64,000 nt of DNA from a virus. The stretch covers positions 142,245 to 206,244 of IMG/VR virus record IMGVR_UViG_3300026484_000087, one strand, 5' to 3'. Below, piece by piece: positions 55,077-61,089 of this stretch. The position numbers were made by a program, and so were the translations under genes. The number at the start of each line of letters is the position of its first letter. The first letter of the stretch is position 1. The notes below the pieces were generated by a model. It ran no database searches, was not told the origin of the DNA, and saw nothing but the letters and a program-made list of their open reading frames with translations.

Positions 55077-55105
55077 AGTAGTATACGGTTAAACCGTATA
55101 CTACT
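55077..55105. terminator. Bidirectional terminator
   Basis: 14-bp perfect arms (AGTAGTATACGGTT and complement) around one base lie between the convergent helicase and the holin-like gene. Confidence 0.8.
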
Positions 55106-55304
55106 TACCTATTTTAATGTTATCTATAATTTTACCAAGTAAATCTTTAGTAAAATCTGATCTAAACATCATAAAGATTGAACTATATAATGCAACAAAA
55201 CCAGTAGTTTCAATAACATCCGGATCCATATTCTTATAAACAGTAAACATATATACTGCTATGAAAATAAAGAAAGCCAATGTACTTTTCCAATTCTTAA
55301 ACAT
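55101..55304 (-). CDS. Holin-like small membrane protein, 67 aa
   Basis: AAAGGATTAGT precedes the ATG. Two transmembrane segments (about residues 8-22 and 35-48) and a basic C-terminus (KDLLGKIIDNIKIGK) give the size and topology of a class II holin. The spanin pair lies far away, so this is a possible lysis-timing protein; small membrane proteins of other function look alike. Confidence 0.5.
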   Translation of the reverse strand: MFKNWKSTLAFFIFIAVYMFTVYKNMDPDVIETTGFVALYSSIFMMFRSDFTKDLLGKIIDNIKIGK

Positions 55305-55376: not shown

Positions 55377-55586
55377 ATGGAATATATTTTAGACATAATT
55401 GGCATACTATGTTTTATGGTGATACTTTATTCATTTACAAATAAAGAAACTATGCCGTGTACAAATGAACAGTGTGACGGTACTATGGAAAGCTTTATTT
55501 ATACTGGCGATGGTGATGGACCAGCTCCAGATCATTTACATTTTAAATGCAATAAGTGTGGAAAAGAAGAACAAATATTACAATAG
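55377..55586 (+). CDS. Membrane-anchored zinc-ribbon miniprotein, 69 aa
   Basis: GAAAGGATTAGCTT precedes the ATG. An N-terminal transmembrane helix (residues 4-20) is followed by two cysteine knuckles, CTNEQC and CNKC, about 30 residues apart, typical of a zinc ribbon. It would place a zinc ribbon at the membrane. Single-gene transcript, divergent from the holin-like gene. Confidence 0.65.
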   Translation: MEYILDIIGILCFMVILYSFTNKETMPCTNEQCDGTMESFIYTGDGDGPAPDHLHFKCNKCGKEEQILQ

Positions 55587-55618
55587 TATACTAAGAGGTT
55601 TAACCTCTTAGTATACTA
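55584..55618. terminator. Bidirectional terminator containing both stop codons
   Basis: 17-bp perfect arms (TAGTATACTAAGAGGTT and complement) around one base. The first TAG is the stop of the zinc-ribbon gene and the last bases are the stop of the convergent outer-membrane protein gene. Confidence 0.85.
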
Positions 55619-56755
55619 GAAATCATACTCTATTTCAAATCTTATATCATGCTGGGGTTTTCTAGAATCTACGTCATATCTTTTAAATCCGCCATTTTGT
55701 ATAACATTATATCCATCTGGCTCATACCTACTTAATCTAAATTTGGCATGCATTTTATTGGTTGCTTCTAGGTCTATATAAACTGTATTCTGTTTACCAT
55801 TTTTAAACATACTATATGTAGATAAAAATCTACCAGTATTTAAGCTAACATAATCATCTTTTATAAGACTATGTTCAAATCCAATTGTCGCATCCCTATT
55901 TATATATGGTACCGTAATGTATTTATTAAAACCCAATACAAAAGAATATCCAGTTAACGTATTACCTAAATTCTCACTATGTGAATAAGCCCCATAGTTA
56001 AAAAACGTATAACCACTATCCATAGAATCATCAAGTATATAAGTGTAACCAAATATATCTGCATTTATATCCCCACCTAACTTTTCGCATGCTTTACCAT
56101 TTATCTTAAAATAATTAAATGATAAATTGTTTTTACTACCTTTAAAACTATACATTAAAGACAGACCACCAACTTCTTTATATGTAGGAGCATACATCTG
56201 GTCTTCATTAATTAGAATAGAATTAAAGAAAACATCTTTAGATAAATAACCTATGTTCATTACATGATTGCCTACATGATAATTTAAATAAGCTCCATCT
56301 GCTATATAATTACTCATCAATGGGTTTATGTTATTCTTACGATCTTGTGGTAAAGTAACAACCGATCCATTATCTGTTCTAAAATCTATTTTACCAGCAA
56401 TGAAACTAAGATTATCATTAATTATATATTTATAATACATCTCATCAATGATTATTAAAGTTATGCTATCCTTTTCATTAAGACTAGTATCTAAATCAGA
56501 TTTATAATCATAATTAAGATACATTATTTCAGTTGTAAGTGATATCATACCGCCATCAACATTCTTTTTATATCTACTATAAAGTAATATGTCCTCCGTT
56601 GCTATATTACCGTAATTCCTATCAACATTAAGGTAACTTAAATGTAATTCATTTTTTAATAAATAACCTTTATCTTTAAGTTCATTGCAACTAACAACAG
56701 TTGTAAATGTAAATAAAGCTAAAATGATTAAAAGTATTTTTTTATTTGTTATCAT
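55616..56755 (-). CDS. Outer-membrane beta-barrel (porin-like) protein, 379 aa
   Basis: The start at 56755 (MITNKK) follows AAAGGAGCTTTTG. The N-terminus is a signal peptide (ILLIILALFTFTTVVSC); VVSC is a possible lipobox. The rest alternates polar and hydrophobic residues over many short strands (AYLNYHVGNHVMNIGYLSKD) and ends in Phe (EIEYDF), the usual signature for BAM-inserted barrels. Size and style resemble bacterial OprD/DUF3373-type porins; family assignment is tentative. Phages rarely carry porins. It is the last gene of the operon with the kinase and receiver, so it may be their target or a receptor-masking protein. Confidence 0.65.
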   Translation of the reverse strand: MITNKKILLIILALFTFTTVVSCNELKDKGYLLKNELHLSYLNVDRNYGNIATEDILLYSRYKKNVDGGMISLTTEIMYLNYDYKSDLDTSLNEKDSITLIIIDEMYYKYIINDNLSFIAGKIDFRTDNGSVVTLPQDRKNNINPLMSNYIADGAYLNYHVGNHVMNIGYLSKDVFFNSILINEDQMYAPTYKEVGGLSLMYSFKGSKNNLSFNYFKINGKACEKLGGDINADIFGYTYILDDSMDSGYTFFNYGAYSHSENLGNTLTGYSFVLGFNKYITVPYINRDATIGFEHSLIKDDYVSLNTGRFLSTYSMFKNGKQNTVYIDLEATNKMHAKFRLSRYEPDGYNVIQNGGFKRYDVDSRKPQHDIRFEIEYDF

Positions 56756-57023
56756 CAAAAGCTCCTTTAGTTATTTCTATATCACTTCTGTAAAGGCCTT
56801 TTATGCAATCACAGATTTTTCTTTTTTTACTGTAAGAAATTTCTTTATATAAATATTGATCTATTTTATTTTTCTTACATACTCTATACCAACCTTTATT
56901 AGACTTAATATCGTAGTCTATTAAATCTCTATTATATAAAATACCACAACTTGCAATATCAGAATATAGATTTATATTAAATATTAAGATTAGTCCTAAA
57001 AAAACAAAAAAATTTTTGTTCAT
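56742..57023 (-). CDS. Secreted four-cysteine protein, 93 aa
   Basis: AAAAGGAGTAAAT precedes the ATG. Signal peptide FFVFLGLILIFNINLYS with cleavage near residue 21. The mature part has four Cys (residues 26, 49, 71 and 73) and is basic. It overlaps the outer-membrane protein gene by 14 bases and follows the kinase by 2 bases, so it is translated with both. It may be a periplasmic partner or ligand of the sensor. Not recognised. Confidence 0.6.
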   Translation of the reverse strand: MNKNFFVFLGLILIFNINLYSDIASCGILYNRDLIDYDIKSNKGWYRVCKKNKIDQYLYKEISYSKKRKICDCIKGLYRSDIEITKGAFDDNK

Positions 57024-57025
57024 AT

Positions 57026-58417
57026 TTACTCCTTTTTATAAGTATAAGGTTCTACTGGTATCAACAGTTTAAAAATAGTCCCCTCAGATGACGTCTTATG
57101 TAGACTTATCTCTCCTTTATATTTTATAAGTGTTTCTCTTATCACATACATGCCGAGTCCCCTTCCTGATTCAGACGTAAATAATTCTGGTTTATAAAAT
57201 ATCTTTTTAAATAACGATGTAAAGAAACTAGTTTTTTCATGTATTATGTCACCTGATAAAGTTTTACTAGATACTCCATATGCAAATATTAAATCATATT
57301 CTTCCTTAATAATAGGTTTATTATTTTTACCAAGTACACCTGTACCATTATCTATACAATACAGTTGTAACGTTGAATTATTTATTAATTCACATTCTAT
57401 TATAACTTTACTACATTTTGCTTCTACCGAATTTGTAACTAAATTAGAAAGTATATTCATATACTCACCATTTGGTAGACCTCTCAAATGTAATGATTCT
57501 AAAAGTTTCATATTCTTTATTTCATACTCAAAGTGTCTACTTGTAAATATAGATGTAGTAGCAAATAAATTCTTAGTAAGCATTGCCATATTTTTGTTAC
57601 CGTTACTATAGCGATTATCTTTGCTCTCTCTTAATAGAGCTAGTACGCCATGTAGTCTATCTATAGAATTACTTATCTTTTCAATGTAGTCTAATATAAC
57701 CACTCTTGGTAAATATTCATCGGAATTTCTTACTTTTAACTTCATGCTGCAAGTTTTACAATCATCTACATATTGTGTTTGTATAGCGAGCCTTATCTCA
57801 TCAAATAAATCCTTTATTACTGTTATTGGACCAAGCATCTCATGGTGCATCGAACCAGCAACAGTATATTGTAACTTACCTTCTAGAACCGTCTTAACGT
57901 TTTTGTTAGCTAACAATGCCGCAGCTACCTCATTTCTAGCATTTCTAAAATATATAAAAGCATACCATATCAAGAAAAATATAGTAACTGTATAGAATTG
58001 ATTCATTACAACAGAATAATCATATGTATTTAATTCTATAGTCATTTTATGCTTGTCATATTCTATATCAAATGTATCCTTTATAACAATATCTCTTATC
58101 TTTTTTAAGTAAGTATTATCAGTAATTGTAGCATAATCATCATCTCTCATTAAGACATTATTCCTAGATATGTCTGGACTGAAATAAACGCCATCTAACG
58201 TTATTGACTTACAATTACTAGCATAACAAAATAATGATATATCTATGTCATCACTATGATATATTTTATCTATATTAGTCTTATATTCGTTTATAAGATA
58301 AAGTCTTTTATTGTACTCAGTATACATGAATATTATAAACAAACTAATGGCTAATAGAATAGAATGTTTAAAATATATTGCCAGTATATTCCTATTTATT
58401 ATCCATTTATTTTCCAT
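57026..58417 (-). CDS. Sensor histidine kinase, phage-encoded, 463 aa
   Basis: Transmembrane helices at residues 12-33 and 141-158 flank a periplasmic domain of about 105 residues with Cys64 and Cys69. The dimerisation helix follows with MHHEMLGPITVIKD (phospho-acceptor His192). Two further cysteines (Cys220, Cys223) sit between the helices. The HATPase domain has an N box NILSNLVTNSVEA (Asn325), G1 DNGTG (356-360) and G2 GRGLG (418-422). All catalytic landmarks are present, so it should autophosphorylate. No HAMP linker is seen. It overlaps the receiver gene by 11 bases. The signal is unknown; redox or envelope sensing fits the cysteines. Confidence 0.8.
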   Translation of the reverse strand: MENKWIINRNILAIYFKHSILLAISLFIIFMYTEYNKRLYLINEYKTNIDKIYHSDDIDISLFCYASNCKSITLDGVYFSPDISRNNVLMRDDDYATITDNTYLKKIRDIVIKDTFDIEYDKHKMTIELNTYDYSVVMNQFYTVTIFFLIWYAFIYFRNARNEVAAALLANKNVKTVLEGKLQYTVAGSMHHEMLGPITVIKDLFDEIRLAIQTQYVDDCKTCSMKLKVRNSDEYLPRVVILDYIEKISNSIDRLHGVLALLRESKDNRYSNGNKNMAMLTKNLFATTSIFTSRHFEYEIKNMKLLESLHLRGLPNGEYMNILSNLVTNSVEAKCSKVIIECELINNSTLQLYCIDNGTGVLGKNNKPIIKEEYDLIFAYGVSSKTLSGDIIHEKTSFFTSLFKKIFYKPELFTSESGRGLGMYVIRETLIKYKGEISLHKTSSEGTIFKLLIPVEPYTYKKE

Positions 58418-59030
58418 CTTTCTTAATTACCTTTACTATTTTATCATAAATAACTTTATATCTAGTATCTGCTTTAGACATATAGAAATCATCAAATTTT
58501 AATTTAGTATTATCCTCAAATTTAGTTATATATTGACTCATAAGTGGATCACGTTTATTAAGACTATGTGCTGTACAAAATACTATTTGACACTCAGGAA
58601 ACTTTTCTAATATCTCTATAGCGATATCAACTCCATCGTATTCAATTATCTTACCATTAGAGAGTTTTATTGACATTTCTAGAGTCATGTCTAATATAGC
58701 TATACTAAGATCATCTATCTCTTCTAGTAATTTATGCGTAGTGAATCCTGCATAAACTCCTATTGCCTCATACACTTTAAATTCTTTAAGTATATCAAAC
58801 TCATACTGTCTCTTTACTCTGTTAAAGTCTAATTCATATAATGTAAATTGCTCTACGAAGTCATCCATAAGTAATATACTTTTACTAGCCTCTTCATTAC
58901 CCTTAATCAATATAGGATCCATAAGATTATATTGTATGCTTTCTGGGAGATTACTATTTTCTTCTTTTAAATCTGTATCAACTTTAGGTTTCTTATTTAA
59001 ACCAAATATATCTTTCAATTTATTAAACAT
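58407..59030 (-). CDS. Stand-alone response regulator receiver, 207 aa
   Basis: AAAAGGACTAAAAG precedes the ATG. Residues 50-200 form a receiver domain: SILLMDDF (Asp56, Asp57), IAILDMTLE (phospho-acceptor Asp114), IVFCTAHS (Thr153) and FYMSKAD (Lys186). All five key positions are kept. An insertion of about 25 residues lies between strands 1 and 3, and about 45 polar residues precede the domain. No DNA-binding or enzymatic output domain is present. It must act through a partner protein. It overlaps the kinase gene, its evident partner. Confidence 0.7.
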   Translation of the reverse strand: MFNKLKDIFGLNKKPKVDTDLKEENSNLPESIQYNLMDPILIKGNEEASKSILLMDDFVEQFTLYELDFNRVKRQYEFDILKEFKVYEAIGVYAGFTTHKLLEEIDDLSIAILDMTLEMSIKLSNGKIIEYDGVDIAIEILEKFPECQIVFCTAHSLNKRDPLMSQYITKFEDNTKLKFDDFYMSKADTRYKVIYDKIVKVIKKDGK

Positions 59031-59045
59031 CTTTTAGTCCTTTTT

Positions 59046-59504
59046 CTAAATTTTTAATATTGTAGTCAGTATGTATTTCTTCATACTTGAGAATGTATCG
59101 GATATGAGACCAATAACGTATTTGGTAGCTTCTGGATCATATAGATATCCTAACCAAATAAGGAAGAATACCAACATCCCACCGCCTATTATATATGGTA
59201 AATTATGAGTTGTAAATAATTTTGCTTTACTTTTCTTAACATCACCATTAACTTGCTCTGTCATTTCTAATAGCTTTTCCATAATGTTAGTAACATCAGT
59301 TAATAAAATCTCGTTTTCATTTTTCATTAGACTTACGCTATGTTTATTATATGTATGTATTAGAACTATAACTTCATGGAGATCGTCAGGAACATCTTTA
59401 AGTTTTAAAAGTATATTTAAGTCATCTGCTTCTATTCTATTGTTTCTTAAGTCGTCTTTTATTCTGGCTATAGCATCTTTAACAGTAATTATTTTCTTTT
59501 CCAT
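59046..59504 (-). CDS. Small membrane protein of the kinase operon, 152 aa
   Basis: AAAGGAGGTTATT precedes the ATG, the strongest ribosome site in the operon. A helical soluble N-terminus (1-95, Asp/Leu/Lys-rich) is followed by one transmembrane helix (about 105-122, IIGGGMLVFFLIWLGYLY) and a short C-terminus. It is the first gene of the operon. Its role is unknown; it could couple the receiver to the membrane. Confidence 0.6.
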   Translation of the reverse strand: MEKKIITVKDAIARIKDDLRNNRIEADDLNILLKLKDVPDDLHEVIVLIHTYNKHSVSLMKNENEILLTDVTNIMEKLLEMTEQVNGDVKKSKAKLFTTHNLPYIIGGGMLVFFLIWLGYLYDPEATKYVIGLISDTFSSMKKYILTTILKI

Positions 59505-59554
59505 AATAACCTCCTTTATAAATTTTATTTTTAAATATCAACTAAATAGTCGTA
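59505..59554 (-). promoter_or_regulatory. Promoter region of the two-component operon
   Basis: Fifty AT-rich bases between the terminator at 59555 and the ribosome site of the 152-aa gene contain the only place for a start of the operon. There is no clear -35, and none of the three conserved leader elements is present. Confidence 0.4.
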
Positions 59555-59584
59555 TAAGTAGACTACAATTAAGTAGTCTACTTA
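59555..59584 (-). terminator. Terminator of the nuclease/peptidase operon
   Basis: 12-bp perfect arms (TAAGTAGACTAC and complement) around AATTAA overlap the stop of the DUF1353 gene and isolate the kinase operon. Confidence 0.75.
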
Positions 59585-59922
59585 ACGCCGTATCTAATAA
59601 AATGATAGCTTCTAACACTGCTAACCATAATAAATCTAGTCACTGGTCCTATTTCCAAGGACTCTAGACATTCTTCAAATATGTCATCAGCAAGTTTATA
59701 CATTTCTTTATCAGTTAGGTAATCATGTAAGATTACCGCTGGCAAATAATCAGATCTATTTGGAGGTAAAAAAATCCAAAATAATCTTGGAACATCAGCC
59801 CCATTTGTTTCGTATCCAGCTGGTACAGTTATCCCATTATAGGTAAAATCTTCTAATAAGACATATCTATCTTTATGCAATGGACTTGTTTTAACAGCTG
59901 AATATATTTCACTTCTTGTCAT
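59578..59922 (-). CDS. DUF1353-family protein, 114 aa
   Basis: AAAGGATTATA precedes the ATG. The sequence order YVLLEDFTYNGITVPAGYETNGADVPRL (landmarks only: VPAGYETNGADVPR), LPAVILHDYL and DIFEECLE is that of DUF1353, a family common in phages near endolysin and tail genes. It may have an envelope-associated role; the biochemical function is unknown. It overlaps the nuclease gene by 14 bases. Confidence 0.75.
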   Translation of the reverse strand: MTRSEIYSAVKTSPLHKDRYVLLEDFTYNGITVPAGYETNGADVPRLFWIFLPPNRSDYLPAVILHDYLTDKEMYKLADDIFEECLESLEIGPVTRFIMVSSVRSYHFIRYGVK

Positions 59923-60580
59923 TATAATCCTTTATAATTTTTTTACAGCTTATAATATGCCTAAATGGATGATCTCCTCTGTTATAAAGTGTTCTATCAT
60001 TAACATATTTAAAGCACATCTTATCCTTACCATTTATAATAAAGATCTTATAAAATACTATAGGTAACCTCATATCAGAAGTTGAAAAATTCTTTTCACC
60101 ATATTTTATCAAATCCAATACCTGAATGGAACCGTATATATTAGAAATATTTCTACTATATGTTTCTACTCTCTTCCAATAATACCTATTTACAGAAGAA
60201 TCCTGAGGAACGCCATTTACGCCTAAAACATAAGTCATTTTTAGAACATCTTTATCATAGTCAAATGTAGCATCATTAGCTAAATGACCTATATCCATGC
60301 GTTGTTTATTTTTATAATAAGCTTTCTTATATGGCCAATATTCCTTTGGTATACCTTTTGGATACCTCCAACTAAAACGTTTTTTGATATTTCTTTTATT
60401 GTTATTGTTTGATTCTACAGAATACAAAACTGCTTTAGTACCCTTATATTTATAATCGTAACAAGATTTATAAATCTTGTTACTGTATATGAAATCACAT
60501 TTATTTTTATTTAAAAAATAATCTGATAGTCCTGATGAGAATAAATTTATTGTTAATAATAGGACTATTAATATTTTCAT
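59909..60580 (-). CDS. Secreted DNA/RNA non-specific endonuclease (NUC family), 223 aa
   Basis: Signal peptide MKILIVLLLTINLFSSGLS. The catalytic block reads QRMDIGHLANDATFDYD: Asp96 and His99 fit the DRGH motif of Serratia-type nucleases, with Arg replaced by Ile. The metal-binding Asn is in SVNRYYWKRVE (Asn131). It would degrade nucleic acid in the periplasm. The start overlaps the M15 peptidase stop by 4 bases. Possible roles: clearing host or competitor DNA in the envelope, blocking superinfection, or virion use. The Arg-to-Ile change could alter activity. Confidence 0.7.
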   Translation of the reverse strand: MKILIVLLLTINLFSSGLSDYFLNKNKCDFIYSNKIYKSCYDYKYKGTKAVLYSVESNNNNKRNIKKRFSWRYPKGIPKEYWPYKKAYYKNKQRMDIGHLANDATFDYDKDVLKMTYVLGVNGVPQDSSVNRYYWKRVETYSRNISNIYGSIQVLDLIKYGEKNFSTSDMRLPIVFYKIFIINGKDKMCFKYVNDRTLYNRGDHPFRHIISCKKIIKDYNDKK

Positions 60581-61089
60581 GTCACTTTCACTTTACTGTA
60601 GATGTTATTTATCTGTTTGATTGTCATTCTTTTATAATTGTGTTTCTTATCTTTTAATTTAAGAACACGTTTATTATTACCATCTTGTGCAGCAACATGG
60701 ATCCAACCATGTGGGAAATACTCAGCTATAAGTTCTTTGTACTCTAAATTTTTATTTATATACTTAAGTATTTTCATATACTTAATCTTCTTATTATATG
60801 GTTTAAAATCAACAGCAAAACCATAAGCATGATTAGAATGTTTAGAACTACCTATGGCTAAACATAAGGCAACAGATCTATAGCCAGACGTTATTTTAAT
60901 AGGACCAAACTTATCTCTAAGAGGTTGTAACACCGTATCTACTAAAAACTGTATTCTTTTTAAATACTTAGCTGGCATATCGTTGTTTATACCTTTTCTA
61001 AGTGCAGTATCTGAAATCAAGAATTCATCCAATGTGAAATTCTTAGATAATCTTATTTTTTTAGCTTGTTTTAATGTAATTACTTTCAC
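60577..61089 (-). CDS. M15-type peptidase (D-Ala-D-Ala carboxypeptidase-like), 170 aa
   Basis: GTG start with AAAGGGATAATT upstream. The zinc ligands are present in SKHSNHAYGFAVDF (His87 and Asp94; His84 nearby) and GWIHVA (His131). This is the M15A layout of phage endolysins and related L,D- or D,D-peptidases. There is no signal peptide. It may be an endolysin or a cell-wall trimming enzyme. Neighbours: a structural protein upstream and the nuclease downstream. Confidence 0.8.
   Translation of the reverse strand: MKVITLKQAKKIRLSKNFTLDEFLISDTALRKGINNDMPAKYLKRIQFLVDTVLQPLRDKFGPIKITSGYRSVALCLAIGSSKHSNHAYGFAVDFKPYNKKIKYMKILKYINKNLEYKELIAEYFPHGWIHVAAQDGNNKRVLKLKDKKHNYKRMTIKQINNIYSKVKVT

Follow-up and report, generated by a model that had tools for sequence, protein, structure and literature searches.

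A jumbo phage carries an operon of five coupled genes, one of which encodes a membrane sensor histidine kinase, and a gene for an endolysin lies in the neighbourhood. We tentatively favour the reading that this operon is an envelope-sensing phosphorelay, probably expressed late, which would work through contact between proteins at the inner membrane and would most likely affect lysis timing or the response to superinfection. The stretch analysed (the window, 64,000 nucleotides) is the last 64 kb of a linear IMG/VR virus record of 206,244 bases (IMGVR_UViG_3300026484_000087). By its marker genes the record is a phiKZ-type jumbo phage: it contains the major head protein (phrog_3231), the PhuZ tubulin (phrog_4733), a divergent DnaB (PF20307) with 42% identity to that of Burkholderia phage FLC9, and subunits of the multisubunit virion and non-virion RNA polymerases (phrog_3148/2987/3015). 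Campylobacterota are the probable host clade, because a 67-aa transmembrane (TM) protein and a secreted nuclease encoded near the operon have relatives there. Identity between the 67-aa protein and one of Sulfurimonas phage SNW-1 is 68%, and a further relative of it is encoded in a Helicobacteraceae genome; the nuclease has relatives in 25 of the 299 genomes of the host-clade (Campylobacterota) order, the best being 38% identical. SNW-1 is otherwise unrelated to the jumbo phage, and the likeness of the 67-aa protein may reflect gene exchange among phages of one host group.

Layout, putative promoter and neighbours of the operon

The sequence-only reading described five coupled genes on one strand, and all five open reading frames were confirmed on the minus strand, with the two overlaps and the 2-nt gap it had given. 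In transcription order the spacing is a 15-nt gap, an 11-nt overlap, a 2-nt gap and a 14-nt overlap. The operon and its surroundings are as follows.

60577..61089, minus strand: M15 endolysin (PF08291, E 3e-13; phrog_894, lysis, E 4e-33)
59909..60580, minus strand: secreted NUC-family nuclease (PF01223, E 2e-16)
59578..59922, minus strand: DUF1353 phage protein (PF07087, E 4e-14; phrog_1158, E 1e-26)
59555..59584, minus strand: hairpin that follows the DUF1353 gene and may serve as a terminator ahead of the operon (12-nt perfect inverted repeat)
59534..59549, minus strand: late-promoter-like site CTATTTAGTTGATATT (class-2 motif, 10.9 bits; predicted start near 59539)
59046..59504, minus strand: 152-aa membrane-anchored protein, operon gene 1 (hydropathy; no family match)
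58407..59030, minus strand: predicted divergent stand-alone receiver, 207 aa (profile rank, motif order)
57026..58417, minus strand: membrane sensor histidine kinase, 463 aa (PF02518, boxes, TM segments)
56742..57023, minus strand: 93-aa secreted four-Cys protein (signal peptide and Cys count from sequence)
55616..56755, minus strand: 379-aa probable outer-membrane beta-barrel protein (signal peptide, beta signal, strand alternation); its ATG is at 56755, one codon downstream of the listed TTG at 56758
55584..55618, no strand assigned: hairpin closing the operon, putative terminator in both directions between convergent genes (perfect inverted repeat with 17-nt arms and a loop of 1 nt)
55101..55304, minus strand: 67-aa TM protein, holin-like by position (68% identity to the SNW-1 protein)

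The proposal of flanking terminators was upheld in so far as perfect inverted repeats are present at both operon ends, but the T-runs are weak, and for this reason neither hairpin was scored by a simple terminator scan. In codon usage all five genes agree with the phage core (z -0.8 to +0.9), and an antisense control scored far lower, which indicates that they are real coding genes and no recent insert. This result also bears on the possibility that the contig end is a product of misassembly or is contaminated with host DNA. The operon does lie less than 9 kb from where the record ends, and the contig of the nearest relative stops just before it. However, besides the codon usage, a phage-type promoter site precedes the operon, phage genes lie on both sides of it and no match was found in 399 host-clade genomes, so that we consider such an artefact very improbable.

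Two classes of promoter-like motifs were recognised. The class-2 motif ACATTTAAATGAT has 47 sites in 113 upstream regions, compared with 12 expected, and precedes genes for the virion RNA polymerase, the DNA polymerase and virion proteins, whereas the class-1 motif TATATTATT...GGCAGTATC has 22 sites, ahead of non-virion RNA polymerase genes. Class 2 resembles the late consensus of phage AR9, which is AACA-6N-TA/G (PMC5312081), and class 1 is similar to the early consensus of that phage. A class-2 site lies upstream of the operon, 45 nt ahead of its first ATG. Since this site is mid-ranking in score, late expression from it is something we infer, and we regard it as likely. The resemblance of both promoter classes (window 1-64000, L003-L010) is to a Bacillus phage, yet the host is probably a member of Campylobacterota.

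The operon is flanked by the endolysin and secreted nuclease genes upstream and by the gene for the 67-aa protein downstream. The nuclease gene overlaps both the endolysin and the DUF1353 genes, and the endolysin and nuclease genes are probably on a separate upstream transcript. The 67-aa protein is holin-like by position only; its SNW-1 homologue is encoded three genes from an M15 peptidase. A convincing defence family was not found by PADLOC, and a match to phrog_16666 was rejected as weak and absent from relatives. In the closest relative, which has an 86% identical capsid protein and is collinear over 104 kb, the contig extends for another 0.7 kb beyond the 67-aa gene and then ends, and the first gene there encodes a cytochrome-c-like TM protein instead of the barrel. 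This 158-aa protein (L002:12723-13199) carries a cytochrome-c-like CxxCH beside the holin-like gene; a cytochrome in a phage would be unusual.

The kinase, the probable receiver and the predicted envelope proteins

The assignment of the third gene product as a sensor kinase is solid as far as sequence can establish it. It matched HATPase_c (PF02518) with E 1.3e-10 and 42.1 bits against a curated cut-off of 26.4, and comparison with E. coli kinase cores ranked it first among 221 phage ORFs with an hhalign probability of 96%. The conserved boxes are present in order: H192-E-M-L-G-P, N (NLVTNSVEA, 325), G1 (DNGTGV, 356), F (GVSSK, 381) and G2 (GRGLGM, 418). Hydropathy predicts TM segments at ~11-30 and ~136-155, which flank a periplasmic domain (~36-134). 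The claim of a complete membrane sensor kinase thus held, with the match, all boxes and two TM segments in place; the Pfam search gave no match for the DHp domain. Its sequence departs from that of ordinary kinases in that the DHp hairpin, which carries CKTC, and the ATP lid are both longer. In addition to CKTC (57740-57775), there is a CX5C in the periplasmic domain (58195-58260), and the gene for the secreted four-Cys protein comes next. Taken together, these Cys motifs make a thiol or disulfide cue for the kinase possible.

The 207-aa protein is probably a divergent stand-alone receiver. It had been described as a receiver with all phosphorylation residues, and these were found in the proper order at strand ends (D56/D57, D114, T153 and K186), with longer spacing than in CheY. 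Against an E. coli receiver profile, the protein ranked first of 221 phage ORFs, and its score was reached by 7 of 3000 shuffles. On the other hand, it is so divergent that Pfam assigned no family at E<=1, and PF00072 was not matched in the genome scan either. A broader profile, with other phage receivers added, also speaks less clearly for a receiver, since 203 of 3000 shuffles did as well. The best PDB sequence match was the receiver 3cu5, in register at 'DG...TA', with a non-significant E of 0.21. A single-sequence model of low confidence (pLDDT 41) gave the receiver MaeR as the top Foldseek match (E 0.03); its element order fits (beta-alpha)5 with an extra beta-hairpin after D114.

The missing Pfam match and the low-confidence model would also suit a divergent Rossmann-like or cREC-type protein that is not phosphorylatable, with the kinase working alone. 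Divergent cREC domains do exist in jumbo phages, where they are linked to NAD/ADP-ribose enzymes and never occur with histidine kinases (PMC7824862). The 207-aa gene differs from them in overlapping a histidine kinase gene. Because the full DD/D/T/K set in order, the best rank in the proteome and the shuffle result argue against this interpretation as well, it appears quite improbable.

The receiver has no output domain, DNA-binding or other. The pair therefore cannot act as an OmpR-style transcription switch, and would have to act by protein contact. The 152-aa product of the first operon gene is a candidate for the contacted partner. As had been proposed, it is a membrane protein, with a cytosolic helical N-terminal part and one TM segment at ~104-122 predicted by hydropathy. 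Family searches with Pfam and PHROG, XhlA lysis accessory families included, gave no match.

Two products are predicted to be exported. The 93-aa protein has a predicted signal peptide and four Cys in the mature part, in agreement with the earlier description, and family searches gave no match. The 379-aa protein is probably an outer-membrane beta barrel, judging from an N-terminal hydrophobic segment or signal peptide with a possible lipobox VVSC, a C-terminus (DIRFEIEYDF) that is a classical beta signal, and strand alternation in 47 windows, against 23 for shuffled sequences (10 in 500 of which reached the same level). These features are in favour of the beta-barrel claim of the sequence-only reading, but the protein matched no known porin or outer-membrane protein family and had no homologue in the phage and Campylobacterota searches, and an AlphaFold model without alignment (pLDDT 31) contained no usable barrel.

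Alteromonas phage loci and the possible role of the operon

Several unrelated lineages of Alteromonas phages encode a receiver without an output domain directly after a small membrane-anchored helical protein, mostly in the lysis region (loci compared: L060:5618-6447, L061:4699-5752, L062:4630-5950, L063:2985-3962, L064:2985-3962, L065:3227-3950, L069, L071 and L072). The pair is located before a GH108 endolysin in R9Y1 and its relatives, before an M15 endolysin and a holin in PB15, after a class II holin in R8W and H4/4, and near a papain-like amidase in PT11-V22. PT11-V19 has the same pair with a receiver that lacks the phospho-Asp, and a lysis gene was not recognised nearby. Three of the receivers were scanned and matched PF00072 with E 1e-17 to 1e-23; most of the membrane proteins align and share a C-terminal L..LTMHL-like motif. 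No kinase was found in these loci, and we found no paper that describes the TM protein and the receiver as a module. R8W gp48 has been published as PhoB and read as phosphate adaptation (PMC8228385). It is a 153-aa receiver without a DNA-binding domain (L063:3501-3962), and its gene adjoins that of the class II holin.

The likeness between the window and these loci is one of architecture, without detectable sequence similarity. With a hybrid profile that included other phage receivers, 203 of 3000 shuffles were as good as the 207-aa protein, so that no relation to the Alteromonas receivers is detectable beyond the fold level. The 152-aa protein matched none of the Alteromonas membrane proteins, and its resemblance to that of PB15 is in topology alone. 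It is conceivable, if rather doubtful, that a TM helical protein and a stand-alone receiver form a recurrent lysis-region module, to which the window phage added its own envelope-sensing kinase, closing a sensory circuit for post-translational control of lysis.

In the phosphorelay that we tentatively favour, the kinase in the inner membrane would read a periplasmic or envelope cue, perhaps via the co-encoded four-Cys and outer-membrane proteins, and would pass phosphate to the stand-alone receiver. The receiver may then bind a helical partner anchored in the membrane, for which the 152-aa product of the first gene is the simplest candidate. Such binding could tune a step of late infection at the inner membrane, in the first place the timing of lysis or the reaction to superinfection. 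The kinase with all its boxes, the late-type promoter site, the endolysin and holin-like neighbours, the Alteromonas parallel and the receiver without an output domain speak for this reading. Against it are the lack of a detectable relation to the Alteromonas receivers, the absence of kinases from those loci, the middling promoter score, the probably separate transcript of the endolysin and nuclease genes, and the purely positional holin assignment. The sequence-only reading had suggested that the phage senses the envelope and remodels the surface. Its interpretation finds support as regards a kinase-receiver pair that the phage encodes in a single operon together with secreted and envelope proteins; of the outputs it had named, lysis timing gains from the neighbourhood and the Alteromonas parallel.

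The main rival to the phosphorelay is surface remodelling centred on the porin-like protein, which we hold to be somewhat unlikely. The outer-membrane and secreted proteins would be the effectors and would mask receptors, exclude superinfecting phages or take up nutrients; the kinase and receiver would regulate either these proteins or the envelope stress response of the host. Export is predicted for two of the five products, the nuclease encoded upstream could degrade periplasmic DNA of superinfecting phages, and a phage-encoded outer-membrane porin that changes receptors has a precedent in Lc (NmpC) of phage PA-2. However, the barrel identity is only predicted and no homologue was found that would support the linkage; lacking a DNA-binding output, the receiver cannot control the barrel gene as response regulators usually do, and late expression leaves little time for exclusion.

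Alternatively, the phage kinase or receiver might supply phosphate to a two-component or chemotaxis pathway of the host, or drain phosphate from it. The architecture of the stand-alone receiver is like that of CheY, and the ATPase region of the kinase matches CheA best, although weakly, in the PDB and in Campylobacterota genomes. Since adjacent genes for a cognate pair speak for a circuit closed in itself, and no close host homologue of the kinase or the receiver was found in the 399 genomes, we regard such a hijack as improbable. The kinase matches in Campylobacterota were CheA ATPase regions only; those receiver and barrel matches that were read were due to chance, the ORFs being unrelated to receivers or porins and one of them NADH-dehydrogenase-like.

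Little is understood of how large phages time lysis and respond to superinfection. A phage that carries its own kinase, a probable receiver and exported proteins beside lysis genes may sense the envelope and adjust the end of infection; if this is true, it would be measuring the cell envelope while it infects. The Alteromonas receivers make the idea testable at once in cultured phages.

Distribution and comparison with known systems

No homologue of the kinase or the receiver turned up in 22 related phage records, public phages and the 399 Campylobacterota genomes. Searches of viral contigs with the kinase, the receiver and the barrel, and of genome contigs with the kinase, found no relatives. 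HATPase_c occurs in one of 23 phiKZ-type records, that of the window phage itself, and the Pfam receiver in none. As to the proposed check, the same gene order in relatives, the contig of the closest relative ends near the operon and no homologues were found in the related records, so that the five-gene linkage is known from one genome.

The assertion that kinase and receiver pairs are very rare in phages agrees with the single HATPase_c record and with the phage collection, in which most kinase matches were by appearance bacterial contamination or prophage. The matches in Acinetobacter MD-2021a, Listeria LM, Staphylococcus SA and fecal 'Bacteriophage sp.' records looked like bacterial DNA or allowed no judgement. 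Stenotrophomonas phage Bhz63 (L066:3986-5532) was rejected as a phage with a complete pair of response regulator and kinase. Its kinase ORF near the record end runs into GVQTCALPI, presumably a translated sequencing adapter, and because the ORF is truncated at this adapter-like peptide, the record end is probably host contamination.

Phage kinases and phage receivers are already known, each separately, and the operon has precedents in phiCDHM1 and prophiGD05-1. As far as our searches show, what is new here is the pairing of both with exported proteins in a phiKZ-type phage. The porin Lc of PA-2 is likewise a phage-encoded outer-membrane protein; it is, however, an enterobacterial porin with known homologues and without a kinase. 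Clostridioides phage phiCDHM1 encodes a kinase of the AgrC type but no receiver (PMC3901668). Its AgrB/D/C cassette is similar in placing a phage-encoded histidine kinase alongside signalling partners, but the kinase is of the host quorum-sensing type and the phage is temperate. In the Mycobacterium prophage prophiGD05-1, a 'DNA binding protein' that matches a receiver and an annotated histidine kinase are encoded by adjacent genes, as in the window; the differences are that it is a prophage, that the 225-aa regulator is annotated as DNA-binding and that the kinase gene is on the opposite strand. The Alteromonas loci share with the window a TM helical protein followed by a receiver without an output domain near lysis genes, whereas their receivers are conventional, the kinase is absent from the locus, and the phages and hosts are unrelated. 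Like bacterial two-component systems, the operon encodes a membrane kinase in which the H, N, G1, F and G2 boxes are present, and the receiver gene adjoins and overlaps that of the kinase. The operon differs from these systems in that the receiver is very divergent, with longer loops and no output domain, that the DHp hairpin of the kinase is extended with CKTC and the ATP lid is long, and that the whole is encoded by a phiKZ-type jumbo phage.
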